From a virus: a DNA stretch of 44,132 nt. Of this stretch, positions 7,712 through 38,600 are shown piece after piece. The notes beneath the pieces are model-generated. The model worked only from the letters and a program-made list of their open reading frames with translations. It did no database searches and was not told where the DNA came from. The stretch is from the IMG/VR virus record IMGVR_UViG_3300037493_001428, positions 1 through 44,132 of that record. The stretch is one strand, 5' to 3'. The position numbers and the translations under genes are program-made. The first letter of the stretch is position 1. Each line of letters begins with the position of its first letter.

Positions 7712-7713
7712 AT

Positions 7714-16014: not shown

Positions 16015-16024
16015 TACTATTGAA

Positions 16025-19462: not shown

Positions 19463-19493
19463 CTAATCTGATTATAAAGAATTACCAAAACTT

Positions 19494-19512
19494 ATTATCA
19501 GTGTTTGATAAT
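19494..19512 (+). terminator. Hairpin downstream of the cargo gene, possible terminator
   Basis: ATTATCA and TGATAAT form a perfect 7-bp stem with a GTGTT loop, 31 bases after the stop codon. No U-tract follows, so it is at best a weak intrinsic terminator; it could equally be an mRNA-end or processing structure. Confidence 0.35.
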
Positions 19513-19526
19513 CTAATATAATCCAT

Positions 19527-19543
19527 TAAATTTGCTAACCACA
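19527..19543 (+). promoter_or_regulatory. Candidate phage promoter motif (copy 1)
   Basis: TAAATTTGCTAACCACA matches 14 of 17 positions of the motif at 42620-42636 in the other long gap. It lies about 30-50 bases before the ATG at 19575. The Bacteroides consensus (TTTG, about 19 bases, TAnnTTTG) is not met at the right spacing, so a phage-specific promoter or operator is the better guess. Confidence 0.45.
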
Positions 19544-19574
19544 TGTAAACTTTGCATGTACAAAAATAACTACT

Positions 19575-22193
19575 ATGGCCTCATGGACAGATAAAATCCC
19601 TACCTTCAATCCTTATGTTCAGCAATTGCCTGTAGAGGCAATGGTTGAAGTGGGTATGCAGAAGCAAAAGCAATACAATGAAGGGATTCAAAAAATACAA
19701 ACCAACATTGATAATATTGCTGGTCTAGATCTTGTTAGAGATATAGATAAATCTTATTTACAATCTAAGCTTAATCAATTAGGTAATGATACAAAATATT
19801 TAGCTGCTGCTGATTTCTCTGATTTTCAAATGGTTAACTCTGTAACAGGTATGGCTAATCAAATTGGTAAGGATGCTACTGTTCAAAGTGCTGTTGGAAA
19901 TACAGCAAAGTATAGAAGAGAGATGGCACTTGCTGAAAAGTTTAGAAAAGAGGGTAAGTCATCTGCAAATAGAGAATATGATTTAAGTGTAGCTGCTAAT
20001 AGTTGGATGGATAATCCTGATCTTAATGCAGGTTTTTCAGGAAAGGCAAAACAATATCATGATGTAGATAAAAAAGTTTTAGAAGTGATTGGTAAATTAT
20101 CTCCAAAGATTGATATTAAAGACATACCTTATAATGTTATAAAAAACAAAGATGGTAGCATTAACTATAATGGTATTTCTGCTGCAATGCAAAAGATAAC
20201 TAGCAGTGAAATTTCACCAGAACAAATTAGAACTGCTGTAAACTCAATGCTTGATTCAAATGATCTTGATGAACTTGCTTCTCAAGGAAGATATAACTAC
20301 AGAGGATATGGAGTGGAAGAGCTTCAATCATCTGCTACTGCAGGATATGAATCTAGTAAATTACAATATAAAGGTAATTTAGAAAGATTAAAACAACAAC
20401 TACTTACCACTACAGATCTTGGTCAACAAGAAGAGATAAACAAGTCTATCAATTTTTATACAAAGCAATTAGGCGATGGGACTACACCAGGAGAATTACA
20501 ATCTTCATATGAACAACTAGTATCTTCTATTTCTGATAATCCAGATGGAGCTAGATCTATGCTATACAAAAAGAACTGGTTAGATCAAATAGCAAATGGT
20601 TTCCAACACAGAGATGTAAAAGATGAGATTGTAGAAAACCCATTAAGAAAAGATTGGTGGGAAGGCAAGAAGTTTGAATTTGATCAAATCAAAGAAGCTA
20701 ACAATCAGGCATATCGTAAGAGAACTTTGGAACAAGGTGATCGTGCTCTTGATATAAAAGCAATAGAGGCACAAACTAAAGCAGACAAGGATAAAGGAAC
20801 ATATGATCCATTCTTTCAAAATAGTGGAAATCCTTCTACAAGTAATTTGGAGTCAATGAACAATTACCTAAATTATAATTCACAGTTGGCAAGTACAAAT
20901 GATCAAATATTATCATCCCTTGCAAATGGTGCATCTTCATTAACAACAAAGGTTTCACCAGACATTATTAAAACAAACATTGACAAGTATAGAATTGGAA
21001 AGTATGCTCCTAAAACAATGGATGAGAAGAGAATGTTTGATCAATATATCCAGAATCAAAACACTCTTGACACTCAAGCAGCAATGCTTGCTGAAATAGA
21101 AGACCAAGAATATAGAAAACTTACAGGGGATAAGAAAGGATATGAGCAAGCAACTAGTCAACTTTTAAGTAAGAATGGTAATTTTTCTGTATACTCAGCA
21201 GGTACAAAATATACATTCACTCCAAAAGAAGTGTATAATTATTTGAAAAAAGAAAAATCAAAAACAGTTGGTTCATCTGGTAGCTCAATGACTCCTATGA
21301 GCAATATGTCTCAAACTACTTTTACATATGTTGATGATGCTTCTCTTACAAAAAGAGAAAAGTTATTAAAAGCTGCATTTGCTAAAAGATATAATAGTGC
21401 AAATACAAGTACAGGTAATGCTGCAAGTGATCAGTATATCTCTGGAATAAAAACTATAATTAATAGAAATAAACCTGTTGAAACTGCAGTTGCTACAAAA
21501 GTTGCAGATAGACTTTCAACTATTACAGGAGGATTTAAAACAGAACAGTCTGCTTTGAAGTTTAAAGATACAAACTGGAAAGCTAATTTTGCTAGTGATA
21601 TGGCAAACATTGCTTCAGCAGACATGCGAGAAGGTACAGCAGGCAAAGAGTACGATCCAAAGAAAACGCTTGGTTGGTTAACAAAAGATGAGATTGGAAA
21701 TATTGATTTTCAATTCAAACGACAAGGTACTCAATATTATGTACACGTCACCAATAAAAGTGATGATGGAAAGACACAAGTTGTACCAGTTACATTAGAC
21801 TTTGTTAGAAAGAATCAAAGTTTAGGTGAGAATTACCTGACTCCAAATCCAGACTTAGGAGAAGTGACATTAAGAAATAATAAAACTACAAACATATTGA
21901 AAGATTTTAAACATGCACATCTTCCAACAAGTAAGTTTGGTGGAATGAATTCTGTAGGAAATAGAACAGTAACTTTACCAGTTGCTGCAGACTACAATGT
22001 TGGTAATGATGGAAACATTTATGCAGTAATTAAACTTTTAACTAATACAGGAAATTGGTTAGAATTCAATGTTCCATATGCTATAGATAAAAACGAATTT
22101 GAAAGTCAATATCTTCCATCCATGAATGATGGAAAAGTTATAGCTTTATTTAAAACTAAATATCCAAATATTGAACAATTAATTTCTAGATAA
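19575..22193 (+). CDS. Conserved crAss-like cargo protein
   Basis: An 872-residue protein beginning MASWTDKIPTFNPYVQQLP, a start I associate with a conserved internal virion protein lying just ahead of the giant polymerase gene in crAss-like phages. Residues about 20-300 are helical and partly coiled coil (EVGMQKQKQYNEGIQKIQTN, RYNYRGYGVEELQS). Residues about 300-620 remain helical and charged. Residues 620-872 are more mixed, with beta strands near the C-terminus (QYYVHVTNK, NWLEFNVPY). There is no signal peptide, membrane segment or enzymatic motif. First gene after the candidate promoter at 19527, and coupled to the next gene by a TAATG overlap, so the two products are likely made in fixed ratio. 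Function unknown; packaging into the capsid or tail as an ejected protein is inferred from context. Confidence 0.62.
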   Translation: MASWTDKIPTFNPYVQQLPVEAMVEVGMQKQKQYNEGIQKIQTNIDNIAGLDLVRDIDKSYLQSKLNQLGNDTKYLAAADFSDFQMVNSVTGMANQIGKDATVQSAVGNTAKYRREMALAEKFRKEGKSSANREYDLSVAANSWMDNPDLNAGFSGKAKQYHDVDKKVLEVIGKLSPKIDIKDIPYNVIKNKDGSINYNGISAAMQKITSSEISPEQIRTAVNSMLDSNDLDELASQGRYNYRGYGVEELQSSATAGYESSKLQYKGNLERLKQQLLTTTDLGQQEEINKSINFYTKQLGDGTTPGELQSSYEQLVSSISDNPDGARSMLYKKNWLDQIANGFQHRDVKDEIVENPLRKDWWEGKKFEFDQIKEANNQAYRKRTLEQGDRALDIKAIEAQTKADKDKGTYDPFFQNSGNPSTSNLESMNNYLNYNSQLASTNDQILSSLANGASSLTTKVSPDIIKTNIDKYRIGKYAPKTMDEKRMFDQYIQNQNTLDTQAAMLAEIEDQEYRKLTGDKKGYEQATSQLLSKNGNFSVYSAGTKYTFTPKEVYNYLKKEKSKTVGSSGSSMTPMSNMSQTTFTYVDDASLTKREKLLKAAFAKRYNSANTSTGNAASDQYISGIKTIINRNKPVETAVATKVADRLSTITGGFKTEQSALKFKDTNWKANFASDMANIASADMREGTAGKEYDPKKTLGWLTKDEIGNIDFQFKRQGTQYYVHVTNKSDDGKTQVVPVTLDFVRKNQSLGENYLTPNPDLGEVTLRNNKTTNILKDFKHAHLPTSKFGGMNSVGNRTVTLPVAADYNVGNDGNIYAVIKLLTNTGNWLEFNVPYAIDKNEFESQYLPSMNDGKVIALFKTKYPNIEQLISR

Positions 22194-25100
22194 TGGAAAA
22201 CGAAGAAACAATGCTTCCTATCAGTCCACTAACTGAAAACTTTTTACCTACCAATAGAATACTTCCAATGGAAAGTCAAGACGTAGCTCCTTATAGAGGA
22301 GTTAGTCTAGAAAGAAATACAGGTGGTCCAGCTGATAACTTTATGCCTCCTATGGCTAAAGGTGATTCACAGTTACCAGACATGGTGACAACTGGGCAGT
22401 TATATGGAGCAAGAAGATATCCTGTCTATGATGCAAATAAAACAGAGAATGAATTTGCTTATGGACAAACATGGATGGACCAAGCTAGAAATGGTATTCT
22501 TAAAGGTTTAAATCTTACAGCAACAACTGTTGTAGGAGGTTTTGCTACTGTTGGAGGATTGATTGCTTCCCCTTTTACAGGTCGTCTTTCTACTATTTGG
22601 GACAATCCTTTAATGAATGAGTTGGACAAATGGAATGAAAAAGTAGATAATGAATATCTTCCTAATTATTATACAGATGCTGAGAAGAATGCTGAATGGT
22701 ATTCTAGAGATAACTGGTGGACACCCAACTTCTTATTTGATAAAGTAATTAAGAACTCAGGATTTGCTGTTGGAGCAATGATTTCTGGTAATATTGCTAA
22801 TGCTGCATTCAAAGGATTGGGTGCTCTTGCAGGAGCATTGGCTAGTGAAGGAGCTATTGCTGCTGAAGCATCACAGTCATTTAAACTATTTTCTCCATTA
22901 TTAAAAAATACAGCACGAGCTTTTTCTAATGGTAAAAACGTTGAAGCTGCACAACTTCTTAAGAGTGAAATAACTTCTATTGCTGATGCTACACAAAGAA
23001 CATCAAAGATGGCTGAGATTGCAAAGCAAGGAAATCTTTTTGCAAAGATCAATGATGCAGGAAGAAGAACAGCAATTGCTACATACTCATCTGCAGGAGA
23101 AGCTTCGTTTGAAGCATTGCAAACTTCAAAAGAATATAGAAACAATCTTATTGAGAAGTATAAAGCAGAACATGGTGGAGAAGAACCAAAAGATGCTCAA
23201 TTAGAATACATTAATGAGCAAGCAGATGTCGTAGGTAAAACTTCATTCCTTGGTAACTTAGCCATCTTATCTATTACAGAGAATGCACAACTTAATAAAT
23301 TATTAGGAAGTTCATATGCTGCAGACAAACAAGCTGCAAATAGTTTGTTTGGAGAAGTAGATGATGTTCTATTGAAAGCAGATAAATATGTAGCAAAGAC
23401 TCCCACTACAAAGTTTGGTAAGTTATATGATAAAGTTACAGGTGTAGGTAAGTATTTCTTTGATCCTAAAGAGGGAGCTCAGGAGATTGCTCAATATGCT
23501 TTACAAGTAGGTACAAAAAACTATTGGAACAAGGCTCATGAAACAGATGATGCTGATGCTTGGGTAGATGGGGCACTTTATGGAATGTTTGGAAAAGATG
23601 AAGCTGGTGAAGGAGTTGGTGCATTTGTTTCTAAAGAAGGTATGGAAGGTGGATTTATTGGTGCACTTACTGGTGGTGGTATGCAAGCCTTTTCAAACTA
23701 TGGACAAGGTAAAGCTAAAAGAGAAAATACAAATAAATTTTTAGAACAACTTAATGATGCTCCTACATTTAAAGAAGCATTTAAAGATAGAATTGATTCT
23801 GCAAATAGAGGTGTGGTACTTCAACAACAACAACAGTCTGCTGTTATCCAAGGAGATAAATTAGAAGCAAAAGATCTGAATACAGATTTAATGCATAACT
23901 ATTTAGCTCCACGTATTAAGTATGGTAGATTTGATATGGTGATGGATGATCTTGCAGAGTTGAAACAAATGGGAATGTCAACTGAAGGACTTAGTGAACT
24001 TATAAATCAAGGAGTTGCTAACACTAATGATACAGTGCAGTCTTTTCAAACTAGACTTTCTAATTTTGAAAATGTAGCAAAAAATACTCAAGAGATATTT
24101 AAGTTTAATGACTTAGCATATAGTGGGGAAGTTTTAAAAGATAAAGATGGTGTGCCAATTTTAAAAGATGGTAAACCACAAAGAAAATATACATCTGCTG
24201 CAATTATGCAGATGAACTATGCTGCTGCAAAAGTAGCTGATTATGATCTTCGTATTCCAGAAGTATCTATGGGACCTATTAGTGCAGGTGTTCTTGTACA
24301 AGATATTATAAATCAAGAGCTTACAGATCCTAAATCTAAAGCACTTGAAACTGAGGTGGCTAAGATTAAATCAAGTAAAGAAGTTAAAGCCAAAGAGACT
24401 GCTCAACAATTAACAGACGTTGTTGAGATGTCAATGAGAAGAAAACAATATCTTGATGAGTACAATGACATCATTGCTGCTCCACAGAAATATGCTGATG
24501 CTAGAGAAGAGTTTATAAAAAACTTAACAGCTTCTGGACAAGTTCCTGGACAAGCTCCTGAAACAATTACTATCAAAACAAAACTTGGTGATAGAGACAT
24601 TGAGATTGGAACTGATTACTTCTTAGGAAAAGTTGTTGAATATGATAAACAAGGTAGACCTGTAAATCGTGCACCTATTGTTAGAATTCTTGGAGAAGAA
24701 GATGGTAAAATTAAAATGCAGGATGTTAAAACTGGAGAAATAACTTTAGTTAGTCCTGATGCAATTGAGGATTACAAACTTGGTAAAGTTAGTGATGCTA
24801 CACAAAAAGATATTTGGATTAATAATAACTGGAATACAGTATTTCAACATAGAGGAATTAAAAATAAAAAAGGTCTTCCTATTGAAGGACGTATAGAGAA
24901 TCATCCTAAACAAGGAATGATGTACTTTGTATATACAGATGATAGAGGAAGAGTTCAAAAAATTCCTGTAAAGAATTCTGACTTTGTAGCTAAAGAAGGT
25001 TACAAGCGAGGAATGATTGCTCCTAAACAAAAACTTGTTGCAACAGAACAACAAACATTGGAGAAAATCTTTTCTGCAAAAGAGAGAGCAGCTCAGTCAT

Positions 25101-28100
25101 TAAGAGAGCAAGCTATTCAAGCACGTAATGAAGTTATCTTAGAACTATATGATGAGAGTGTTCAACGTATAGAAGATATAAACAAAGAGCTTGATAAAAC
25201 TCAAAACTCAATTGAGAGTGTTGAAAAACAATTAGCAGAAGAAGTTGCAAAGATACCTAGCACTAAGAAAGGTGTTCCTAGCAAAAGAGTTGCTAAAGCT
25301 CTTAGACAAACTATTGATGCATTAGGAAAAAGTCTTGAGAGTCTTAGAACTATAGAAGCTGATTTACAATCTGAAAGAGAAACTGTAGAAGCTAGTCTTC
25401 CATACATTCAATCTTTCATTGATGAATTAACTGAGGCTCCTGAAGATAACAATGATCTTATTGCAAAACTAAAAGGTGATGTTTCTATATTAAAAGATTT
25501 AGCTAAGATTACTACTGAGTCTATTGAGAAGATTGGTGAGTTGTACAAAACAGCTGAGAGTTTATTACAAGATGCTCTTGAAGAATTGAATGACTTTATC
25601 AAAGAGCTTAAAGAGAAGAATCCTAACATGCCTATTTTTATAGAAGACTTACAGGCTAATGTAGAAAGATTTTTAGGAGAGCAAGGAGCTGAACAATATA
25701 TACAAGATAGATTAGGATTTACTAATCAAGTGAGAGAGTTTGAAGATCAGATAACTGATCTTGAGAACTATCTAGAACTTCCAGGTCTTACAAAGAATGC
25801 AGATAAACTTAGACAAAGTCTCTCAGAGTTAAAAGAAGGACTACAAGCATTCAGAGGAGAGCAAGCTGCTAAAGAAGCAATTATTGAGAAGTTTGAAGCA
25901 TACATTGAGAAAGAGAAACAAAAGAAAGAAGAGGAAGAAAAGGTTGCTAAGAATAAAAAGATTCAATCAGAACTCTTAGGAACAGCAGATTCCAATGCTA
26001 TTCAGAACGAGAAGTCTGATGGTACATTTGAAAGTGATGATAAGAAACCTAACAGCATAATTCCTGAAGCAACTATAACTACTGGTGATAAACCTCACGC
26101 TGTTAGATCAAATGCTTTTGGAGCAAAGATGAATTCATTTGAGAATAGAGATGAAGTTCGTGGTGTACACATCACTTCTAAAAATGAAGATGATCTTATT
26201 CCAGGACTTACAGATCATTTAAGAAAAGATGATGATGATGTAGTAGATCAAGAGATTGATGGAGATAAAATCATTGCATTGGTGATGGTTGATAGCGAAG
26301 GTAATCTTCTCGATGTCAATGGTAAAAAGATTGAACCAATACGAGAAGGTGAAACTAAAGAACAATATGATCAAAGAGTTTTAGACACAGCCATCTATCA
26401 AGTTATGCCATTGGAGAAACTTCAATGGGGTCCTAAGTATGGAAATAAATCTATGTTTAGAGAAGGAACTTCTGAACAATACAAAGATGAAGTTCGTAAG
26501 AAATATGCAGCTTGGAGAAATGAAACATTAGAGCAATCTAATGTTGGTCCTCTTCATACAGTTGATGCATCTTTTGGTAGAGGGGAAATGGTACAGATAG
26601 AAGATGAGAAAGGTAATTTGAAAAATGATTACACTGCTAAAACATCTGTACAAAGTGCTGGGCTTATATCAGAAGAAGATCTTGCAACCACTCCTTTAAT
26701 TCACATTCCTAAAACAAATGCCACTGCTGCCAAGAAAACCACGTCATTTAAAAATGCACTTGGTCAAGTTTTCTTGGAGTTATCAAATGGATTTGTAAAA
26801 CTTAGAAACAGACAACATAATGAGAAAGAAGCTAAGGTGATTTTTGATTCATTAGTGATGCTTTCTAAATACATGATGGATAAATCAAAAGGTCTTAAGA
26901 GTGATGAGGCAGTACGTCTTCTTACATTCTTGAAGTCTTCTGTATATTGGGGTATTCCTGAGACACAACAAAAGGTTAGAAAAGCTGCAGGATACAATAG
27001 TATATTCTTTGAAAGAGATGCTGACACTGGAAGAATGATGTTGAACCTTTCTGGTAAAGGAATGGATTTTGTATTTACACCATCAGGTCTTTTGGAGAAC
27101 GAGGATACTATCCTTGGTATGTTAGAAGGAATGTACAAAAACGTAAACTCCTACATGACACAAAACCTAAATGAGTCATACGAAGAAATAACAGGTATTG
27201 GTCCTGATGGAGAAGTTAAATCTAACATATGGCCTAACTACCAAACATACTTACTTTCAAATAAGAATGCTAATGGTTCAGAGAGAGCAGCTGATGAAAT
27301 CCCTGTTACAACATTACTCAGACCTTTAGAAGGAGAGAATGATGTTAATAGAAAGAACATCTATTTCTTTACAACAGATAATGCAGATACATTTGCTACA
27401 ACTGTTTCTCCAGAGAAAGCTGCACCAGCTGTAATCACTCCAGGAATGCCAAAAGCAGCACCTGCTCCTGCTGCTGTTAAAGATGGTAAACAAGTTTTAA
27501 TTGATAATATACAAGCTAGAAAAAAAGCAGTACTTGCTAATGCAAAAACTGAAGAAGAGAAAGCTAAAATTAATGAGGACACTAATCAACTTTTAGAGAT
27601 TATAAACAATGCAAAAGTTGGAATCCCTGGACAATTTGTATTAGATGGTGAAACACTTAATATTCAGATTGGTAATACAGGAAACATGATTGTGTTTACA
27701 GCTGAATCAGGAATCACTGCAGAGAACTATAACGATAAGATTAAAATCAAACCTGCACTTGGTGATGTTATGAATATTGTTGAGATAGTGAAGAAACAAC
27801 TTAACATAGATCAAGCTGGAGCAGTTGATAACATAAAGAAAAGTTTAGCAACTGTAGTTGCTCAACAAGAAGCAGCTCCTGTAGTTGCTCCTGCACCTTC
27901 TCAAGAAGAGTTTGATGAATATGAACCATATGTAGAACCAGCGTTTGAAGAAGGTGTACAAGGTGGAATTGATCAAGCTAGTCAGAATGCAGGTAAGCCT
28001 ATTAGCAATTCAGTTAAGTCAATTATAAATTCAAAAAGAAAACCTAGTTCTAAAAAAGCTAGACGTGAAGTAATTGTACAAGATTTAAACAAATTCAAAA

Positions 28101-31100
28101 AAGAAGATTGGAACAAAGTGGAAAGATGGATTAAAGCTGTCCTTCCTAATATTCCTGTGTATAGAGTTAAGAATGTAATCCAAGCTACTAATGGAAAACA
28201 AGCTTGGGGTATGTTCCACAATGGTGCTGTTTACATTTATGAAAATGCACAAGTGGGAACAGCGTACCACGAGGTATTCCATGCTATATGGAGAATGTTC
28301 ACTGACACTAAAGAACAGGAAGCAATCTACAATGAATTTAAAAATAGAAGTGGTAAGTTCTTTGACAGAACTTCTGGTCAAACAATCAATTATGCTGAGG
28401 CAACAATTGATCAAATGGAAGAAGCTCTTGCTGAGGAATTCAGAGACTACGTACATGAAGGAAAGAAACCAGGTAAACCAAGCGATGGTAGACCTTTCAT
28501 TCTTAAAATGTTCTCTGATCTTGTAAACTTCATTAAAAAATTATTCTTAGGTAAAGAATCTGCTTCCTTAGTAGAGGAATTGTTCAAGAACATAAATCAA
28601 GGATCATACAAAGCAAGCATGCCATTCTCAAAAGAACTTGGGTATGCATCAAAAGGAATCATTGACATTGATGATATCTCAGGAGATGATGAGAGTGCGT
28701 TCAGTCTTGTTGAGATGGGAGACATTCAAAGAAATGAAATCCTTCAAGAGATGACTTATCAAACGTTGTTACAACTGATTGATAGTGATCAAGACTTGTT
28801 TGATATTCCTAACATCAAAAGATCTACAATCTATGAAGGACTTTATGGAAAGATCCAAAACATGATTGCAGAAGGAATAGACATTGCTTCAGAATTAATG
28901 ACTGAGCCTGAATATCAAACTCCAGAATTACAAAAACAATTACAAGACGAGATTGCTAACATTACACAATTGATGCAACAAGTTGAAGATAGTTGGGAAA
29001 GTATTATGGATAGACATCAAGAATACTTGAGAGGATATTCAATTACATTTGACGAGAATGATGAACTTGCATTGAATGATGATGAGAAAAGTAAAGAAGA
29101 TCCTTTTGGAGATTCAACTAAAATAGATCATTTCAAAAAGGCAAACGCTGCAATTAAGTTATTATTGTCAACTGTTCCTATGTTAGATGAAAATGGAGAC
29201 ATGAGAGTATCTTCAGTGGGTGGAGCAATCCTTATGCCAGTTAGTCAAACATATATTAGTGTAATGAACAACGTTCATAATTCTAATAACATTGAAGACA
29301 TGTTAGAGAAGTTACGTCAAATGGCAGTGTATGATCAAACATATGCTGTACTATATGATCGTATTACTAAATCATCATATAAACTTGAAGGATTAGATCT
29401 TAGCAAAGTTAAAACTGTACATGGTGCAAAACTTATTGATGCTTTCTTTAATACATTCAAGAAACAAAATCCTGATGTTAAGAATGTATTCATTCTTAGC
29501 AATGGAGAAATTGTTGTAGGAGAAGCTAATCTTTCTAGTGCAGCTTCCCAATTGAGAGCTGAGTATATAAATCAAATCATTACAAAAGCTAAAGAAGGAA
29601 AAGGTTTCTTTAAATATAATACCACTAAACAAGTTTATGAAGTTAATTCTGATAAACTTAAAAAATATCAAGTAGGTGATGCTATGCAAATGCTATCTTT
29701 CTTAAAAGAACTTGGTGTAGATTTTACAGGAAGACAATTCACAAAATTAAACGATGTCCAAGCTTCTATATTTAGAGATGCTGTATCTGGTATTAGATCA
29801 AGTATAGCTAATGCTCAAGAAATTAAAAACTTCTCAAGCAAAACTTTGGACATGGAGAAACGTTTGTTTCAACTTGGTTTATTAAAAGCTTCTATAGACA
29901 ATCCTCAGTTTGACAGTACATTCTTTAATGTGTCTGGAGAACGTACACAATCATTTGTTGGAACTAATGCTGCAAGTAACTTATTTACATTCCTTAGCAA
30001 CCTAACTGCTTTTACAAAAGATCAATTAGCTGGAACTAACTTTGCTTATTTAGGAACTGATTCTTTTGTAGAAGGTTCTTCTTTATTGAAAAGAAAATAT
30101 ACAGCTGATGGAAAAATTATTTCAGGTTCAGAAGATTTATTAACTGTAGGATATGTAGGAGGTATTGTAAATGAAACCAATGGTAAAACTAAACCATCAT
30201 CAAAACTAGATTATAAAAATCGTCTTGTACAAGAATTAAATCTTAACTTGAAAGGTTGGTATCTCAATCTTGTTCCTGGAGATGCATCTTTGGAATGGAT
30301 GATTAAAATGGGTAACCCAATTTCTGCAGTTAGTCTTACTAGAGGATTTGGAGAAGTACATGAGTTATTCAAAGGATATTTTCTTTCTGAATTAAAACTA
30401 GCTAGAGAAGATCGTCCTATTGCAAATGTAAAAGGAAGAAGTACCAATGATATGCGATTCTTCAAGTCTATTCTTGGAGAGGTATTACATACTGAGATAA
30501 TTAGTTCTAGTGAGTTAGTTGAAGAAGTTTATGCACAATATGAAAAGAAAATCAATACTGCATTAGACAAGTTTATTGAAACTCAAAAAAATAAATTTGT
30601 TAATACGTTAGTAGAATATGGTATTGTAAAACCAGAAGGATATGGTTATACATTAGAAAACCTTGATCTTCCTAAAGGAATGATTGAGGCTGAGTTCAAT
30701 AGACACATGAACATGCTTACAGTTAATTTCTTTGTGGCAAACATTGAGATGCATAAGTTGCTATACTCAGATCCTTATCAATATTCTGATGAGTTGAAAC
30801 GTATCAAAAACTTTAACTCATCTGGACAACCCCTTATGAATAGTTCACCAAAAATGAATAAACTTTATAACACTGTGTGGAATAAAGGATACAAAAGAGG
30901 TGACATAGGATATACAAACTTTACACAAGAGCATTTCAAAACAGCTACACATGCTGACGTTAATGGTATTGTAGATCTTCCAAACTATGATAACTATAAA
31001 GAGACTGATGGTGCTGGTATGATTTCATTCAAAGCACATCGTCAGTTTAGAATTAGATCTTCTAATTGGAATTCTAATGAAGAAGCACAATATAAATATG

Positions 31101-34100
31101 ATGTAGCTTGGGAAAAAGTTGATAAAGGAATTAAATTAAATCCTGGTGAACAAGAGATATATGATCTTGGTAATCCTGAAGTTAAGAGTGCATACACTCC
31201 TTCTAAACCTATTGCTCGTGGAAACAAAGCAAATGGTAATAACTACAATGATGTTGTATTAGATAAGTTCGCTCTCTATCCTGTTTCATATAGAGTGATG
31301 AAACAAATCAACCCAACTTCGAACATGGTTAAACTTTATAATAAGATGCAAAAAGAAAAGATCGATTATATTGTATTTGAAAGTTCTAGAAAAGTTGGAG
31401 TGGATAAAGCTCATGCAACATATAATGCAGAAGATTCTAGTTTCAATGAAACTAAATATGCTAAACGTACAATTACAAACGTACCATTCTCAGTGTTATA
31501 CGTACAGGCAGAAGTTCCTTCTAAAGATATAGATGTGGTTACACGAGGTTCTCAGGTAACTAAACTTATCACCATGGACTTCTTGGATGCTGGTGTACCT
31601 ATTGACTTTGAAATAAAAAATAGTAGTGGGGAAATAGATACAAATTTCACCAACAGATATGAAGCTTGGTTTAGATTATCTGAAGAACAGAAGAAAGAAC
31701 AATCTGATGTATATAAAGAAATTAAAAACAATGAAGACTTATTAGTTGCATTGATAAAGAATGGTTACAACAACCTTCTTAAAACTTTAGGTATTTCAAA
31801 TGTAAATGGTGAGTTTAAAATTATAAATTTCAATAAATCTGCTACAACCTTACGTAACGAGATTCTAAAAAGAGAAGTTAATGATAACATTAGTGATGCT
31901 TTAAAATCTTTCTTAGAAGGTAAAGCTATTCTTGAAGCTACTCCTGCATATCAACAAGTTAGAAATATTCTTTATTCTATTGCTGATAGAGAAGTTGTTT
32001 CTTCTAAGATGCCTGGTGGTATGAAAGTACAGATTCCTTCTACATTGTTAGAGTCTGTTCGTGCAAAAGAAGTTGAAGTTAATGGTAAGAAAGGACTTGC
32101 TTCTGATGTTCTTAATTTCTATGAGAAAGATGGCAAACGTGTATGTGAAATCATGGTTGGTAGATGGTTCAAGTCAGATTTATCTGATGATGAATTATTA
32201 GATTTATGGTATAAAAAAGATAAAAAAGGTAATAGAACAGAAGAATTAACAGAAGAAGGAGAAAAGATTTTGTCAGGACTTGCATATCGTATTCCTACAC
32301 AGAAACAAAACTCTATTGATAGTTATGTTATTAAGCAATTCCTTCCAAAAGAATTTGGAGACTCTGTTGTTATTCCTGCTGCACTTGTTGCTAAAGCTGG
32401 ATCTGACTTTGATATTGATAAGTTGTCCATTTATTTCAAGAATGTAAAAATTGGAAAAGATGGATTACCAAAATATATTGAATTCCAAGACAATAGTAAT
32501 TCAACTGTAGAAGAACGTTATGTAAAATATGTTTCTGAGAATACACCAGACTACAAAGACATTGTAAAAGACTTTAGAGAATCTGAAGAGTTTGCTACAA
32601 AGAATAAAAAAGTTGATAGTGCATTTGAAACTGTTGGTAATGAAAGACAGAAGTTAGGTGAGGTCAAAACAGAAATAGATGATGCATATGAGATTGGCTA
32701 TGAATCATTTAAACAACTTCCATTAGGAGTGAAACAAGTGTTTTGGGAAGTAGAGAGAGATTTAAGGGAAGAAGATATAGATGGGTTACAAAAGAATCTT
32801 TTCTATGCCAGTATTGCTGAAAAATTATTATCAGAAGTAAGTGGTAAGGAAACTGTTACACTTGAACAAATCATTAAATCTAAAAATGGTGAAACCAAAA
32901 CTGAGAAAGTTACAGTACCTGTTGAAGAGATTGTTCCACATTTAGAAGCAATGTTAGAAAACTATAAAGAGATGAGTGCTCTTTATGGTATATCTAATGA
33001 ACAATTTCAAAAAATTACAAGCAGTTTAGCAAATGCTAAGACTATAAAAGAAATACTAAACGATAGATATAAACTTGAAGTGGCCAAAGTTGTTGCTGAG
33101 TTTACAAACTTAGACAGCTTAGAAAAATTTGGTCAGAGAAAAATGCAAGACCAGAATACCAGAAAAGCGTTAGAGAATGCATATACACAATCTTCTCAAA
33201 ACCTTGTATCTCATCCTAAGAACTACGACAGACTTATTCAACCTAACTCTGCAGAGCAATTAAAAGGATTAGCTAAGTTTGTTGCTGAGAAAACTGCTGG
33301 ACAATCTTTTGATTATACAGATGTTGGTAACATGCTTGATAGAACATTCATGTCTAAATTAAGACATGCGTTTGTTAGTGGTAAGTATGCAATTGGTATT
33401 GCTGCTGTAAACCAAACTAACCACTCATTGAATCAACGTCAACCTATCTTTATTGACATAACAAAAATCAAAGACCTACCTGAATCAGATAGATATTGGT
33501 TAGGTAATGGAAGAGTTACATTTGAAGCATTCAACAAACTTGCAGTTGGTGGATATATCTCTCCAATATTCTCTATGGCTAAGAATGCTGAGAGAAGTGA
33601 AGAGTTTCCTGAAGGTCAAGATATCTCTGATATCCTTGCACAGTTTATTGATGGATATGTGGATATCTCTAAAGGTCCATGGATCATGGAACTTGGAGCC
33701 ACTTCTAATGTTGCTTCTACATGGATGACATTAGTTAAACTTGGTGTGCCTATTGAGACAGTTACTTACTTCATGAATCAACCAATTATTCGTGACTACT
33801 TAAAATCAGTTGAAACTGCTGGATATTCATATTTATTCATTGATGATTTTGTTAGTGAATCAATGAAAAAATATGCACCAAAAGATCAAAAGAGAACACC
33901 TCAAGAATGGAAGGATGCTAAAGAATCATTCAAAGTCCCATCGAAAGATGTTTTGAAAAATCTTGTTGGTGAGGATGTTTCTAAAATGGATAAACAACAA
34001 TTAGAAACACAGCAATTGATGTTATTGGAATTTTTGAAATATGCTAAGATGGCAGAGCAAATGTTCCAAGTAACACAGGGATCTAACTTTGATACAGCAA

Positions 34101-35686
34101 CCTTGAATGATCCATCATTGGTATTCAAGAAAATAAAAATGCTTGAGAAAGCACAAAAAACAATCATCTCTTCTGTTGATGAAAATGGTAAAACTATACC
34201 TGGTGTAGATGCATTATTAAAGAACTCGTTCTTAGGTGAGATGGGAGAGTCTATCATTAATATGAGAGAAGCTCTTGCTCAGATATTAATGTCTGACAGA
34301 CCAGCAATTAGAAAAGTTATTGAACAAGTGCTAACTCCATACCTTGAAACTCCTGATAGAGAGTTTGTAAAAATTGCACAGAAAACTGTTAATGATCTTT
34401 TTGATTGGGCTATATTCACACATGATGGATACGCTGATTTAATAAAATCAGAGTTGATTAAAGATGGTGGCACTGCAAAACAAATCTATGAGTTTGCAAA
34501 AGAAGTTAAAGATGATCCAAATCATCCTTTACATGATAACTTTGTAATTAACATATTAGAATACAAACCTTCATCAAGACCTGGAGATAGTGTAAACAAT
34601 TTAAAAATCAAAGGTGTAGATAACAAAACCTTTGATCAGAATAACATCATTGGTGCATTCAGACAAATAAGAACATACATTGCTAATCAAGAAGCATTAG
34701 GTAATAAAAAAGATTCAGCTATATATAAAGGACTAGTTAATGTGGCAATTTTACAATCAGGACTTTCTAACTCTCCTATATCATATACATCTTTACTTCC
34801 TTATGAAGATTTTGCAGAGGTTTATAATCCAACTCTTTCTAAGTTAGAGAACTTTGGGAACTTAGATTCATTTGTTAACTTAGGAGTGTTTGCAAGAAAC
34901 AACTGGAATAGTGATACGTATGTTCCTAGTTCTGTTGCAAGATGGCTTTCTATTACAGATTACATGGGTAATAGAAACTCTATCTATAATCCATCTATGT
35001 ACTTTCTTCCTGAAGCTGTAAAAGATGCTGTTTCAAATGGAGAGATTCCACAAGTTGTAACACAGTCAGTAAGAAACTCAGGATCAAGTTCTGATTATAT
35101 AACATTCTCTTGGGAATTACAAACTGAGATTTTGACAGCTGATGAACTAAAAGCTGCACAAGATAAAGGTGATGTAATGGCTGCAGTATTTGCTAAAAAG
35201 AATGCTCTACGTAAAGCAGGTGATTATTCATTTATACAAAGAGGATTATTTCAAAAAGTACGTGATAGTTTTGGAACACCATTAACTACAGAGGATAGAA
35301 AAGGTAAAGAATACTTTGTATATAAAGCAATCAATGCTTGGGGTGATTCATTTAGAGCTAACGAGTTCTACGATGTAGATAAACAATCAGTGATTGAAAA
35401 TGGAATGATTAAAGTAAATCCTGCAAGTGATAACTTAATCATTGATATATTCAGAGGAACAAGACCTATGGTTGGAGCAGTCACTGCAACAACACCTATA
35501 GAAAGTGTTTCTTTGAAAGGTGCATTTAATGGATTAAATGAATTCACTCTAGAACAAAAATCACAAATTTTATCTAACTTTGCTATCAAGCATGGACTTA
35601 CTTCAGAGCAAGCATTGAAAGACATTAATGCAGCACTTAAAAAGGATCGAGCTACTGCAATCGAACAATTAAAAAAATGTTACTAA
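22193..35686 (+). CDS. Giant 4,497-residue virion protein: ejection region, zincin metalloprotease and DxDxD RNA polymerase
   Basis: This single frame joins several activities. Residues about 90-510 contain Gly/Ala-rich hydrophobic stretches (about 109-129, 190-226, 480-500) typical of ejected membrane-active proteins. An SH3-like beta segment spans about 800-863 and a long coiled coil about 943-1250. A zincin metalloprotease lies at about 1990-2120, with H2026EVFH2030 and E2077 or E2081 as third ligand. The RNA-polymerase region centres on D3405FDID3409 within KAGSDFDIDKLSIYF, the Mg-binding loop matching DFDGD of cellular beta-prime subunits, preceded by RIPTQKQNS and followed at about 3729 by GKYAIGIAA. 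The crAss-like phage phi14:2 gp66, a virion RNA polymerase of about 2,200 residues, is the family reference; this protein is about twice as long. It would be injected to transcribe early genes. Proteolytic release of the polymerase is an inference. Confidence 0.85.
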   Translation: MENEETMLPISPLTENFLPTNRILPMESQDVAPYRGVSLERNTGGPADNFMPPMAKGDSQLPDMVTTGQLYGARRYPVYDANKTENEFAYGQTWMDQARNGILKGLNLTATTVVGGFATVGGLIASPFTGRLSTIWDNPLMNELDKWNEKVDNEYLPNYYTDAEKNAEWYSRDNWWTPNFLFDKVIKNSGFAVGAMISGNIANAAFKGLGALAGALASEGAIAAEASQSFKLFSPLLKNTARAFSNGKNVEAAQLLKSEITSIADATQRTSKMAEIAKQGNLFAKINDAGRRTAIATYSSAGEASFEALQTSKEYRNNLIEKYKAEHGGEEPKDAQLEYINEQADVVGKTSFLGNLAILSITENAQLNKLLGSSYAADKQAANSLFGEVDDVLLKADKYVAKTPTTKFGKLYDKVTGVGKYFFDPKEGAQEIAQYALQVGTKNYWNKAHETDDADAWVDGALYGMFGKDEAGEGVGAFVSKEGMEGGFIGALTGGGMQAFSNYGQGKAKRENTNKFLEQLNDAPTFKEAFKDRIDSANRGVVLQQQQQSAVIQGDKLEAKDLNTDLMHNYLAPRIKYGRFDMVMDDLAELKQMGMSTEGLSELINQGVANTNDTVQSFQTRLSNFENVAKNTQEIFKFNDLAYSGEVLKDKDGVPILKDGKPQRKYTSAAIMQMNYAAAKVADYDLRIPEVSMGPISAGVLVQDIINQELTDPKSKALETEVAKIKSSKEVKAKETAQQLTDVVEMSMRRKQYLDEYNDIIAAPQKYADAREEFIKNLTASGQVPGQAPETITIKTKLGDRDIEIGTDYFLGKVVEYDKQGRPVNRAPIVRILGEEDGKIKMQDVKTGEITLVSPDAIEDYKLGKVSDATQKDIWINNNWNTVFQHRGIKNKKGLPIEGRIENHPKQGMMYFVYTDDRGRVQKIPVKNSDFVAKEGYKRGMIAPKQKLVATEQQTLEKIFSAKERAAQSLREQAIQARNEVILELYDESVQRIEDINKELDKTQNSIESVEKQLAEEVAKIPSTKKGVPSKRVAKALRQTIDALGKSLESLRTIEADLQSERETVEASLPYIQSFIDELTEAPEDNNDLIAKLKGDVSILKDLAKITTESIEKIGELYKTAESLLQDALEELNDFIKELKEKNPNMPIFIEDLQANVERFLGEQGAEQYIQDRLGFTNQVREFEDQITDLENYLELPGLTKNADKLRQSLSELKEGLQAFRGEQAAKEAIIEKFEAYIEKEKQKKEEEEKVAKNKKIQSELLGTADSNAIQNEKSDGTFESDDKKPNSIIPEATITTGDKPHAVRSNAFGAKMNSFENRDEVRGVHITSKNEDDLIPGLTDHLRKDDDDVVDQEIDGDKIIALVMVDSEGNLLDVNGKKIEPIREGETKEQYDQRVLDTAIYQVMPLEKLQWGPKYGNKSMFREGTSEQYKDEVRKKYAAWRNETLEQSNVGPLHTVDASFGRGEMVQIEDEKGNLKNDYTAKTSVQSAGLISEEDLATTPLIHIPKTNATAAKKTTSFKNALGQVFLELSNGFVKLRNRQHNEKEAKVIFDSLVMLSKYMMDKSKGLKSDEAVRLLTFLKSSVYWGIPETQQKVRKAAGYNSIFFERDADTGRMMLNLSGKGMDFVFTPSGLLENEDTILGMLEGMYKNVNSYMTQNLNESYEEITGIGPDGEVKSNIWPNYQTYLLSNKNANGSERAADEIPVTTLLRPLEGENDVNRKNIYFFTTDNADTFATTVSPEKAAPAVITPGMPKAAPAPAAVKDGKQVLIDNIQARKKAVLANAKTEEEKAKINEDTNQLLEIINNAKVGIPGQFVLDGETLNIQIGNTGNMIVFTAESGITAENYNDKIKIKPALGDVMNIVEIVKKQLNIDQAGAVDNIKKSLATVVAQQEAAPVVAPAPSQEEFDEYEPYVEPAFEEGVQGGIDQASQNAGKPISNSVKSIINSKRKPSSKKARREVIVQDLNKFKKEDWNKVERWIKAVLPNIPVYRVKNVIQATNGKQAWGMFHNGAVYIYENAQVGTAYHEVFHAIWRMFTDTKEQEAIYNEFKNRSGKFFDRTSGQTINYAEATIDQMEEALAEEFRDYVHEGKKPGKPSDGRPFILKMFSDLVNFIKKLFLGKESASLVEELFKNINQGSYKASMPFSKELGYASKGIIDIDDISGDDESAFSLVEMGDIQRNEILQEMTYQTLLQLIDSDQDLFDIPNIKRSTIYEGLYGKIQNMIAEGIDIASELMTEPEYQTPELQKQLQDEIANITQLMQQVEDSWESIMDRHQEYLRGYSITFDENDELALNDDEKSKEDPFGDSTKIDHFKKANAAIKLLLSTVPMLDENGDMRVSSVGGAILMPVSQTYISVMNNVHNSNNIEDMLEKLRQMAVYDQTYAVLYDRITKSSYKLEGLDLSKVKTVHGAKLIDAFFNTFKKQNPDVKNVFILSNGEIVVGEANLSSAASQLRAEYINQIITKAKEGKGFFKYNTTKQVYEVNSDKLKKYQVGDAMQMLSFLKELGVDFTGRQFTKLNDVQASIFRDAVSGIRSSIANAQEIKNFSSKTLDMEKRLFQLGLLKASIDNPQFDSTFFNVSGERTQSFVGTNAASNLFTFLSNLTAFTKDQLAGTNFAYLGTDSFVEGSSLLKRKYTADGKIISGSEDLLTVGYVGGIVNETNGKTKPSSKLDYKNRLVQELNLNLKGWYLNLVPGDASLEWMIKMGNPISAVSLTRGFGEVHELFKGYFLSELKLAREDRPIANVKGRSTNDMRFFKSILGEVLHTEIISSSELVEEVYAQYEKKINTALDKFIETQKNKFVNTLVEYGIVKPEGYGYTLENLDLPKGMIEAEFNRHMNMLTVNFFVANIEMHKLLYSDPYQYSDELKRIKNFNSSGQPLMNSSPKMNKLYNTVWNKGYKRGDIGYTNFTQEHFKTATHADVNGIVDLPNYDNYKETDGAGMISFKAHRQFRIRSSNWNSNEEAQYKYDVAWEKVDKGIKLNPGEQEIYDLGNPEVKSAYTPSKPIARGNKANGNNYNDVVLDKFALYPVSYRVMKQINPTSNMVKLYNKMQKEKIDYIVFESSRKVGVDKAHATYNAEDSSFNETKYAKRTITNVPFSVLYVQAEVPSKDIDVVTRGSQVTKLITMDFLDAGVPIDFEIKNSSGEIDTNFTNRYEAWFRLSEEQKKEQSDVYKEIKNNEDLLVALIKNGYNNLLKTLGISNVNGEFKIINFNKSATTLRNEILKREVNDNISDALKSFLEGKAILEATPAYQQVRNILYSIADREVVSSKMPGGMKVQIPSTLLESVRAKEVEVNGKKGLASDVLNFYEKDGKRVCEIMVGRWFKSDLSDDELLDLWYKKDKKGNRTEELTEEGEKILSGLAYRIPTQKQNSIDSYVIKQFLPKEFGDSVVIPAALVAKAGSDFDIDKLSIYFKNVKIGKDGLPKYIEFQDNSNSTVEERYVKYVSENTPDYKDIVKDFRESEEFATKNKKVDSAFETVGNERQKLGEVKTEIDDAYEIGYESFKQLPLGVKQVFWEVERDLREEDIDGLQKNLFYASIAEKLLSEVSGKETVTLEQIIKSKNGETKTEKVTVPVEEIVPHLEAMLENYKEMSALYGISNEQFQKITSSLANAKTIKEILNDRYKLEVAKVVAEFTNLDSLEKFGQRKMQDQNTRKALENAYTQSSQNLVSHPKNYDRLIQPNSAEQLKGLAKFVAEKTAGQSFDYTDVGNMLDRTFMSKLRHAFVSGKYAIGIAAVNQTNHSLNQRQPIFIDITKIKDLPESDRYWLGNGRVTFEAFNKLAVGGYISPIFSMAKNAERSEEFPEGQDISDILAQFIDGYVDISKGPWIMELGATSNVASTWMTLVKLGVPIETVTYFMNQPIIRDYLKSVETAGYSYLFIDDFVSESMKKYAPKDQKRTPQEWKDAKESFKVPSKDVLKNLVGEDVSKMDKQQLETQQLMLLEFLKYAKMAEQMFQVTQGSNFDTATLNDPSLVFKKIKMLEKAQKTIISSVDENGKTIPGVDALLKNSFLGEMGESIINMREALAQILMSDRPAIRKVIEQVLTPYLETPDREFVKIAQKTVNDLFDWAIFTHDGYADLIKSELIKDGGTAKQIYEFAKEVKDDPNHPLHDNFVINILEYKPSSRPGDSVNNLKIKGVDNKTFDQNNIIGAFRQIRTYIANQEALGNKKDSAIYKGLVNVAILQSGLSNSPISYTSLLPYEDFAEVYNPTLSKLENFGNLDSFVNLGVFARNNWNSDTYVPSSVARWLSITDYMGNRNSIYNPSMYFLPEAVKDAVSNGEIPQVVTQSVRNSGSSSDYITFSWELQTEILTADELKAAQDKGDVMAAVFAKKNALRKAGDYSFIQRGLFQKVRDSFGTPLTTEDRKGKEYFVYKAINAWGDSFRANEFYDVDKQSVIENGMIKVNPASDNLIIDIFRGTRPMVGAVTATTPIESVSLKGAFNGLNEFTLEQKSQILSNFAIKHGLTSEQALKDINAALKKDRATAIEQLKKCY
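28160..28560 (+). other. Intact zincin metalloprotease domain inside the giant RNA-polymerase protein
   Basis: Residues about 1990-2122. GTAYHEVFHAIW supplies HExxH (2026-2030), and MEEALAEEFRDYV about 46-51 residues later supplies the acidic third ligand. It is followed by an amphipathic hydrophobic helix (FSDLVNFIKKLFLG). All residues expected for zinc-dependent catalysis are present. Confidence 0.78.
32390..32440 (+). other. RNA polymerase catalytic loop DFDID
   Basis: D3405, D3407 and D3409 form the DxDxD magnesium site of two-barrel (DPBB) RNA polymerases. Flanking AKAG and KLSIYF strands fit the double-psi beta-barrel loop. Confidence 0.85.
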
Positions 35687-35687
35687 T

Positions 35688-38600
35688 ATGAGTTGTGTTA
35701 ATCCAAATAATCCAGAGTTTCAAGAATTAGTTAGAAAGACAGGAAACTACTTGCTTGCTGAGATAGAGTTTACAAAAAATTCTCCTATCATTCAGAGCAA
35801 TGGAAAGTTATTAAATCTTCCTGAAGAAGCAAAGCAACGCATATATGAGAACTATGTAAACCTAATGGACAGAAAACGTGAAGGTAAAGCTATCACGTAC
35901 AAGTCATTTATTAAAAGCGTTTATAATAACTTACAAGTTTTTAAATCAAAAGACACATATATTTTTGGTGAGTGGGATAGAAACAATAATGTATTCAAAG
36001 GAAGATTCATGTCTTCCCCAAACATTAGAGAGATGTATGGTGCATTAGATGAGTTAATGGACATGGTTAACTTTGCTGCATCTGTTCCAGAAGATATTGG
36101 ACGTATGCTTGAAAAGAAAGGTATGTACAAACTTAATGTTGGTAAAGAATATGACTTCAAAGGAGAGCAAATGATTAAAAACATTTACTTCTCAAATGAA
36201 GAATTAGTTAGAAAAATATTTAAGAAAGAGGTGAGCGACATCACTGAACAAGATGTTAGAAAATACGACAAATTTTTTAACTATAAGTCTATACTTTATA
36301 AATTGGAAAAGCAATTTAATAAAGGTAAGTTTGATGAAATCTACAATACATTAAAAGAGTTAGGGATTTATGATTACAATGCTTACAAGATTCTTAACAA
36401 ATTCAAACAGTTAGATAAAAACTTTACTCCTGAAGAACTAGAAAAGTTTAAAGCAGAGAATGCAGAATTATATTTCACTCCACAAGAGAAACAGAAATAT
36501 AAAATCTATAAAGAATACATGCAGATCATTAATAGTGTGAAAGATCAAATCGCATCTAATAGTGCATCTAATATGGTTAATATAGATAGAACAGATATAT
36601 TAAACAATCCAAAGATTTATAGTCAACTTGACACTGATTTAAATAAAACTTTAGCCACCTACTTATCAAAGTTTGGTATTAAGACAGAAGTTTTAAAAGA
36701 CATGCAAGATAAATTAGGAATTGATTCATTTGCACATGTTGATATTCTTAATAAGATATTATATACATCTGAAACAAATCAAGGAGAATACCCTCAACAA
36801 GCAGGAAAGTTAATTGCGTACATGATGCAACATAATCCTCTTGTAACAGAGATTATGGCAAACATGAAACGATCTTCAATGTTTGGAAGTAAACTTAGTA
36901 AGGATGATTTACTAGATGTAATTGGTGATTTAATTGCAGAACAACTATACAATAAAACAAACACTCAAGTTCCACAATCAATTCTTGATAAAATTGGAAT
37001 GTTGATTAGACAGTTCTTTCAATTCCTAACAGATGTAAGACTTTCTAGAATTAATAAGAACGTTGGTATAATTGCTGAGAATGTATTGATACAAAATCAA
37101 TCGTTGATTACTTTCTCTCCATTTAAACCTGGAGCATCTGGTAAAGAAGTTGTAAGAGTTAAGTTTCAAGAAGCATTAGATAAAGATCGTTTTGCTACAG
37201 CAATTGTAGATAGAATGGCTGATAAGTTTATTCTTGGAGGAAGTATTTCTTTTTCTGAACAAGGTCCTGTTTTGAGACCTGATGAAAACCAAGTTCATGA
37301 TTTGGATTGGGTTTCTCCATATACAAGAAACACCACTGTAAAAGAATTTGAAAATCTATATCCTGAAGGACAAAGAGTTTATATTAGAGAGATAAACGAT
37401 AAGGATACTGGAGAATGGACTGACACATGGTTAGTGTGTGAAGATGGACATACTATACAGAACTTGGTACTATCAAATGATGGCAAGAATAAAGTTCTTG
37501 CTTATGACATTGTTAGTGATGAGACTGGTGAAGTGGTTAGTAAATACATACCAAAACCAGAATCTCATTCAGGAGATATAGAAGCTAAACCTATTGATAT
37601 TTTCTCAAGTGATGGACAACCTAAAGAAAAATATGGCACTCAAGATTTTACTACCACTTCAGGAACTGTAGTTAAACTTGGAAACTGGAGAGCGTCATTT
37701 GAGGCTAAACTTAGATATGGTCGTTTAAAAGATATTTGGGATTATAATAGATTCATTCCTGATGAAAACATCTATCAAGGAGAGCCTGCAGAAACTAACT
37801 TCCAATTGGAAGGCATGCCTATGTCTGCTGCTAGTGAGCAAACTCTTGCAAAAGTCAAAGAGCTTATTGCTAAAATGGGAGTTAGTATTGAGTCACTTTT
37901 AGAATATGCAAAAAAATCTAAACTGAATCTTAAAGATGTAAATGCTGTGGCTGACATGGTCCATGGTATAATTGCTGTAGCTGAAGGAAAAGAAAATGTA
38001 TCTCTTACAGAAGAGATGGTGCACATTGCCACTGCTATATTACAAGCAAAGAATCCTAAGATGATTACAGAGATGATTGCTAAGATTGATCGTTTCAAAA
38101 TATACAATCAGACACTAAAAGCATATAGAGATAATCCTGACTATCAACTTCCTAATGGTAAACCAGACATTCGTAAGATTAAGAAAGAAGCTGTCGATAA
38201 GTTGATAGCTGAATTAATTGTTAATGGTGGGCAAGATATTGCTCAATACCCTGAACTATTAGAAGAGGAGAATCAAAACTTAGTTCAACGTTGGTGGAAT
38301 GCCATCATGGACTGGTTCAGAGGAATGTACAAATCTACAAACGTTAGTATATTCCAACAGACTGCTGACATTATTATGAATGATCAATTAGAAGGAGACT
38401 TCACAGACATTCAGAATAAACAAATCTACTATCAATTAAGTGCTCCACAAGAAGCTATACAAAAAGAAGTATTAGATAGACAATCTAAAATAAAGAAAGT
38501 AGAGAGTGGTGAGAAAGTTGATCCAATGTTTATGGACACTGAAGAAGCTAGTAACTGGTATGAAATTCAAAACGAAGAAGGTGTTTTTAAAAGAATTGAG

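Follow-up and report, generated by a model that had tools for sequence, protein, structure and literature searches.

A zincin domain in the virion RNA polymerase polypeptide of a crAss-like phage and its proposed place in a linked cargo chain

The cargo locus and its zincin domain

This analysis concerns a zincin domain carried by a giant polypeptide, P0001, encoded in a 44,132-base IMG/VR virus record (IMGVR_UViG_3300037493_001428), which as a whole is called the window below. P0001 joins an ejection-like N-terminal part, the zincin domain and a virion RNA polymerase, and is followed by a third cargo protein, P0002 (Table 1). An earlier, sequence-only reading of this DNA had pointed to the motif HEVFH and the acidic helix EEALAEEF, lying between the N-terminal part and the polymerase. 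Both motifs were confirmed in the translation at the residues listed in Table 1, and the location is correct as well, with HEVFH starting at residue 2026 and the polymerase motif DFDID at residue 3405. The polymerase half of P0001 matches phi14:2 gp66 by tblastn, and the homology includes the barrel region with the DxDxD motif that marks Crassvirales virion RNA polymerases. A profile of 14 polymerase sequences, from which phi14:2 was excluded, reaches the DNA-dependent RNA polymerase 6vr4 with an E-value of 7.5e-25; the profile was needed, as phmmer with the window polymerase half did not reach this entry. Because of the matches to gp66 and 6vr4, the window is assigned by homology as holding a crAss-like transcription block. 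P0001 has a multidomain architecture of the polyvalent-protein kind, with packaging known for its relatives only. Scans of the three proteins against Pfam and PHROGs gave nothing useful, and a megablast search of the 13.5-kb P0001 open reading frame (ORF) against phages gave no match.

Table 1. Positions of the cargo genes, domains and junction residues in the window.
Feature	Position	Strand	Basis
P0001, 4497-residue cargo polypeptide: ejection-like N-terminal part, zincin domain, virion RNA polymerase	22193..35686	+	translation; tblastn, profile match
P0002, 2291-residue third cargo protein after the polymerase	35688..42563	+	conserved third ORF in relatives
Zincin domain as modelled, P0001 residues 1935-2175	27995..28717	+	AlphaFold2; VIA-align
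HEVFH, P0001 residues 2026-2030: predicted two zinc His and catalytic Glu	28268..28282	+	translation, alignments
EEALAEEF, P0001 residues 2076-2083; E2077 is the conserved, predicted third-ligand Glu	28418..28441	+	translation, alignments
Zincin/polymerase joint, P0001 residues ~2160-2180, low model confidence; expected place of any cut	28670..28732	+	model, L135 homology start
DFDID, catalytic motif of crAss-like RNA polymerase (P0001 residue 3405)	32405..32419	+	motif, profile match
Cys4496 codon, second-last P0001 residue, C-terminal junction cysteine	35678..35680	+	translation; junction rule
Cys3 codon of P0002, N-terminal junction cysteine	35694..35696	+	translation; junction rule
P0002 zincin-like domain, residues 700-954; EExxH replaces HExxH (EEMVH 38010-38024)	37785..38549	+	alignment, hhalign, model

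HEVFH is the sole HExxH in P0001, where 0.022 would be expected from composition alone. A tblastn search with P0001 residues 1800-2299 matched 59 phage records, all at less than 60% identity, and a first motif scan of 20 annotated loci together with the window and locus L002 returned 18 domains, 15 of which were aligned. In an alignment of 41 relatives the residues G, Y, H, E, F and H and the third-ligand Glu are invariant; most of these sequences were selected with a pattern that includes HExxH, so that the conservation of His and Glu is partly built in, while that of the third Glu is not. The AlphaFold2 model based on the 41 sequences has a mean predicted local distance difference test score (pLDDT) of 80, with 90-96 in the core and values below 50 at model residues 233-241, at its end. 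It shows the gluzincin core of an N-terminal helix, a beta sheet and two C-terminal helices, with HEVFH on the predicted active-site helix (model residues 89-102) and E2077 on the second C-terminal helix (138-155), where the third ligand of gluzincins is placed. With VIA-align, the best match was PPEP-3 (Z 7.0, root mean square deviation 3.4 over 126 residues), followed by Zmp1 and lethal factor (6.3). Among the first 21 rows, 20 were PPEP/Zmp1, lethal factor or Certhrax and one was an edema-factor complex, and the next row fell to Z 3.3. A Foldseek search of BFVD gave 15 matches at E<=0.001, mostly to crAss-like proteins. By sequence, no Pfam match and no PDB match placed the domain in the M34, PPEP or lethal-factor family, so the likeness is structural only. 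The conserved residues and the predicted topology together identify the domain as a genuine zincin of the gluzincin type, putatively active, with HEVFH as its active-site helix.

Variation of the metal site among relatives

The sequence-only reading also held that all zincin residues are kept. This is true of the window and fails as a general rule among its relatives. To avoid selecting for HExxH, a polymerase-anchored set of 160 loci was drawn from two scans, the window was added to it, and the zincin profile was trained with the catalytic residues masked. Zincin domains were found in 124 of the 160 loci, 126 in all including that of the window, while 36 loci gave no match. The sites divide into 54 HExxH/Glu, 63 HExxE/Glu, five WExxR, two HExxH/Asp and two partial ones; with HExxE included, 117 of the 126 retain the H, the E and the third Glu.

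On a FastTree polymerase tree of 146 rows, at least 10 switches between HExxH and HExxE are required, and the clade of 53 to which the window belongs holds 41 HExxE loci, 10 HExxH loci and two with none. A Lys or Arg stands before the third Glu in 56/56 unique HExxE domains versus 3/51 HExxH domains, and on seven independent pairs the two characters agree 6.2 times and disagree 0 times on average (median p 0.031). Among 33 HExxE loci with a polymerase ORF closed at its N-terminal end, 31 have no HExxH in that ORF or in the next large one. The WExxR loci in the tree (four) form one clade, in which the third protein is also fused and the third Glu is missing; in all four WExxR fused-polymerase loci examined, HExxH is absent from the ORF. 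These comparisons show that the canonical HExxH is dispensable and that a recognisable metal site in the zincin domain is absent from one fused lineage, which manages without it.

The view that HExxE marks a plainly inactive enzyme was dropped as going too far, given that CLCA proteins are described in PMC6851300 as having a conserved HEXXE motif in a zinc-dependent domain capable of self-cleavage. Because this HExxE site is described as autoproteolytic, the HExxE relatives may still cleave.

A comparable domain is present in P0002, where EEMVH occupies residues 775-779. From 125 relatives of P0002, 52 including the window were aligned, and five site residues (E, E and H together with a Tyr and a Glu) do not vary in 52/52; all were picked by EExxH, which leaves only the Tyr and the last Glu unselected. 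An hhalign comparison aligns the domain in register with the zincin of P0001 (probability 84%, E 7.2e-6), and its model resembles lethal factor (Z 6.1), IrrE (5.9) and ArdC (4.2). Conservation of this EExxH zincin-like domain extends across the third proteins of Crassvirales. P0002 also has a weaker, second segment of zincin-like character at residues 296-485 (window 36573-37142), with PQQAGK where some relatives have LPEExxH. The HExxE sites and the EExxH sister sites offer a natural series for asking which zincin sites still work.

These patterns bear on the idea of a chiefly structural domain, in which an ancient zincin fold is retained as a spacer or binding module while metal sites come and go. 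The WExxR clade fits such a role, as does the loss of the domain in locus L135 and in phi14:2, and the Lys/Arg before the third Glu in HExxE domains could be a salt bridge that replaces the metal. However, the retention of H, E and third Glu in most polymerase-anchored domains speaks against it, and so do the five invariant site residues of the sister domain, since pseudo-sites usually drift more. A mainly structural role appears improbable to us.

Movable gene boundaries and junction cysteines

The split between zincin and polymerase is movable among relatives, as comparison of their ORFs shows. Loci of Steigviridae and Intestiviridae encode the polymerase in an ORF of its own, often on the opposite strand, with an intact zincin at the end of the upstream ORF. 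In eight of the 18 domains from the first scan (L003-L007, L020-L022), the zincin closes its own ORF 143-359 residues past the motif and the polymerase lies in another. HExxH with its Glu and a terminal Cys were found in 11/11 polymerase-less zincin ORFs with a complete C-terminus. Elsewhere, for example in L228, L229, L233, L234 and L236, the zincin is near the N-terminus of the polymerase ORF and the ejection part is split off upstream. As a separate observation, polymerase similarity in L009 (Pipoluvirus, 9600-21190) spans two annotated coding sequences, as if the polymerase gene were interrupted.

In the model that follows from the sequence-only reading, the zincin would cut its own polypeptide after ejection, just past the domain, and thereby release the polymerase from the ejection part. 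The domain does sit exactly at this border, and in the close relative L135 the zincin is lost exactly where the gene is split: its polymerase is 49% identical, nothing in it matches P0001 residues 1734-2175, the stretch that holds the zincin, its chain is divided there into two overlapping ORFs (L135 5800-6600), and the homology of P0001 to the separate polymerase ORF begins at residue 2175. This suggests a link between zincin and fusion and is the best evidence for one, yet it is a single case. Autoprocessing of N4-type polymerases was also proposed by Iyer 2017 (PMC5512222), and for the commonest site variant, HExxE, an autoproteolytic zinc site has been described in CLCA proteins (PMC6851300). 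Against self-release, the zincin is kept where the polymerase is a separate ORF, the WExxR domains stand in fused chains, and the N4 polymerase is described as packaged unprocessed (PMC5512222). We consider self-release rather unlikely. Taken together with the HExxE majority in the clade of the window, the high-molecular-weight phiCrAss001 proteins and the apparently kept linkage (both below), the comparison of ORFs does not support a dedicated release role: the polymerase would not need the zincin to be freed. Phages with a fused ORF may still undergo self-cleavage after entry. The presence of HExxH next to a polymerase is, by itself, no evidence of polymerase maturation. In phi14:2, the C-terminal region of gp67 (L010 5068-10458) shows, in place of the zincin, a weak match of GNAT type (E 0.069), which suggests an exchangeable slot.

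The ends of the cargo ORFs carry cysteines in a regular manner. P0001 has two Cys in 4497 residues, one of them second-last, and P0002 has two, one at position 3. The sole cysteines of three phi14:2 proteins are C1797 of gp67 (its last residue), C3 and C2179 of the 2180 residues of gp66, and C3 of gp65. In phiCrAss001 (L183), the zincin ORF, in the part within the locus, has one Cys, three from the end, the 2412-residue polymerase has Cys at 5, 1334 and 2404, and Cys5 is the only one in the 1349-residue ORF. The fully fused ORFs of L221 (5542 residues) and L224 (5472 residues) have none. The pattern was noted at window 35678-35696 and in L010, L135, L183, L221, L224 and other relatives. Two cysteine-rich proteins are encoded in the same window as this nearly Cys-free cargo, at 593-1318 (9 Cys in 241 residues) and 7702-9441 (21 Cys in 575 residues).

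For counting, 146 non-redundant polymerase ORFs were used, and a Cys was scored within the first 12 or last 15 residues, where about 1% would be expected. ORFs with the polymerase only have the N-terminal Cys in 32/34 and the C-terminal Cys in 32/33; the preceding ORF has a C-terminal Cys in 18/21, and the next ORF an N-terminal Cys in 31/31 and a C-terminal one in 0/30. In ejection-zincin-polymerase fusions, the type seen in the window, the N-terminal Cys falls to 6/66 and the C-terminal Cys stands at 64/64, with a preceding C-terminal Cys in 3/20 and, in the next ORF, 56/57 N-terminally and 1/49 C-terminally. Where polymerase and third protein are fused, the values are 4/4 N-terminally, 0/4 C-terminally and 3/3 for the end of the preceding ORF; with all three parts fused, they are 0/3 and 0/3. 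A further 36 ORFs that are open N-terminally have the C-terminal Cys in 35/35 (next ORF 33/33 N-terminally, 1/30 C-terminally), and three more open ones with the third protein fused have it in 0/3. The six fusions that do carry an N-terminal Cys are apparently split at a point farther upstream, because in the three whose upstream ORF is readable that ORF always has a C-terminal Cys. In L193 and L211, the mismatch appears to reflect an error in the start or the frame.

Across 175 junctions of adjacent ORFs of at least 1000 residues, Cys was present on both sides in 170, upstream only in two, downstream only in two and on neither side in one; these counts use the first ATG, and some exceptions (e.g. 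L127) look like start-site errors. On the tree, 7.9 of 11 independent pairs show a joint change of the split at the polymerase start and the N-terminal Cys, and 0.6 show changes in opposite directions (median p 0.039). At the second junction, 4/4 pairs change together (p 0.125), which is too few pairs.

Chance was rejected as the source of these cysteines, as the interior Cys frequency is 0.066% and the expectation about 1%. An artefact of nucleotide overlap between genes was also rejected: TGT and TGC are both used (111/21 C-terminally, 139/17 N-terminally), and the junction cysteines persist with the polymerase gene on the opposite strand. The comparison thus shows, at the level of sequence, a constant order of ejection part, zincin, RNA polymerase and third protein, with ORF boundaries that move, a labile metal site, and paired cysteines at the boundaries, hardly ever at the outer ends. 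In split relatives the linkage across the zincin/polymerase joint seems to be preserved rather than cut.

On balance, and with modest confidence, we hold that the HEVFH zincin belongs to a collinear, N-to-C linked cargo chain and is an accessory peptidase that acts after delivery. Crassvirales would, somewhat more probably than otherwise, eject their polymerase cargo as one covalent chain of ~5,000-7,000 residues, in which split ORFs are rejoined by terminal disulfides. Peptide bonds would hold the chain where ORFs are fused; where they are split, the C-terminal Cys of one protein would form a disulfide with the N-terminal Cys of the next in the virion. As a single linked thread, the chain would pass the tail in the N-to-C direction, and the reducing cytoplasm of the host would uncouple the disulfide-joined proteins. 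The zincin carried along in the chain would either be an effector or provide proteolytic uncoupling as an option, perhaps acting in trans on host or cargo proteins, with release of the polymerase in cis at most an optional extra in fused-form phages such as that of the window. If this is true, ordered ejection of the polymerase ahead of the genome follows simply from head-to-tail linkage of the giant cargo. The phiCrAss001 tail is reported to contain disulfides, and how large folded proteins are threaded through tail constrictions of <50 Å is raised as an open question in the same virion study (PMC10172136). Alternatively, the junction ends may bind a common partner or metal and not each other.

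Trimming of the cargo during assembly or in the capsid before ejection, like the processing proposed for P1 DdrB, has a precedent discussed in PMC5512222, and phiCrAss001 cargo is described as stored in the capsid (PMC10172136). However, gp47, gp49 and gp50 of phiCrAss001 are reported as high-molecular-weight virion proteins (PMC6235969). The excised bands include 150, 270 and >300 kDa ones, not matched to individual proteins, for comparison with predicted masses of 262.5 (gp47), 154.5 (gp49) and 276.9 kDa (gp50). The conserved end-to-end cysteines further argue that continuity is wanted until ejection. We give trimming before ejection little credence. The phiCrAss001 gel was a reducing one (PMC6235969), and a disulfide-linked chain would therefore not have shown.

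Several points weigh against the linked chain with its accessory zincin. Internal Cys are plentiful in some polymerase ORFs (23 in L189, 16 in L194, 15 in L021), and of the 443 Cys in 104 complete polymerase ORFs, 138 fall within the end windows, which make up 0.73% of residues; both count against a strict form of the cysteine rule. The VIA-align score (Z 7.0) counts as middling according to the warning that the tool itself gives, and a Foldseek search of the PDB with the zincin model gave no match better than E 0.87. The motif-anchored set is biased toward HExxH, and the loci that gave no zincin match may partly represent divergent domains missed by the profile. HExxE may be active, which would leave WExxR, with one origin, as the sole clearly metal-free fused case. 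Finally, action of the zincin in trans on a host or cargo target is something we infer.

Comparison with known systems

The best structural matches of the P0001 domain, PPEP-1/-3 and lethal-factor-type zincins, align with Z ~6-7 over ~125 residues at an identity of only 12-19%. In contrast to the phage cargo domain, these are secreted enzymes. CLCA metalloproteases (PMC6851300, PMC3650047) share with the crAss-like set HExxE zincins and repeated site substitutions, and self-cleavage is reported for them; they are secreted proteins of animals and bacteria, and the likeness noted is one of motif.

The idea of a zincin in N4-type polymerase proteins, with possible autoprocessing, is already published (PMC5512222) and is not new; PMC12633501 likewise mentions the HExxH of such giant polymerase proteins. 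A literature search of titles, abstract starts and passages returned nothing on cargo terminal cysteines or a crAss-like HExxE zincin; as far as this search shows, the HExxE/EExxH site series and the junction-cysteine rule are new.

The analogy with phage polyvalent-protein zincins drawn in the sequence-only reading is supported by the N4 virion RNA polymerase/polyvalent MPTase as described in PMC5512222: this giant packaged polypeptide has an HExxH + Glu zincin, as P0001 does. In N4 gp50 the motif reads HELVH, at residue 2228. The arrangement differs, as the N4 zincin is C-terminal to a T7-like polymerase, whereas that of P0001 is N-terminal to an unrelated two-barrel polymerase. The N4 polymerase, one protein of 3500 residues, has no Cys, nor do gp51 and gp52. 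There is also a close likeness to phi14:2 gp65-67, phiCrAss001 gp47/49/50 and Rudgehvirus, whose record labels its zincin ORF 'ZnMc_tr'; these share with the window the same block in the same order. Unlike the phi14:2 block, in which gp67 has no HExxH, the window carries zincin and polymerase in one ORF.
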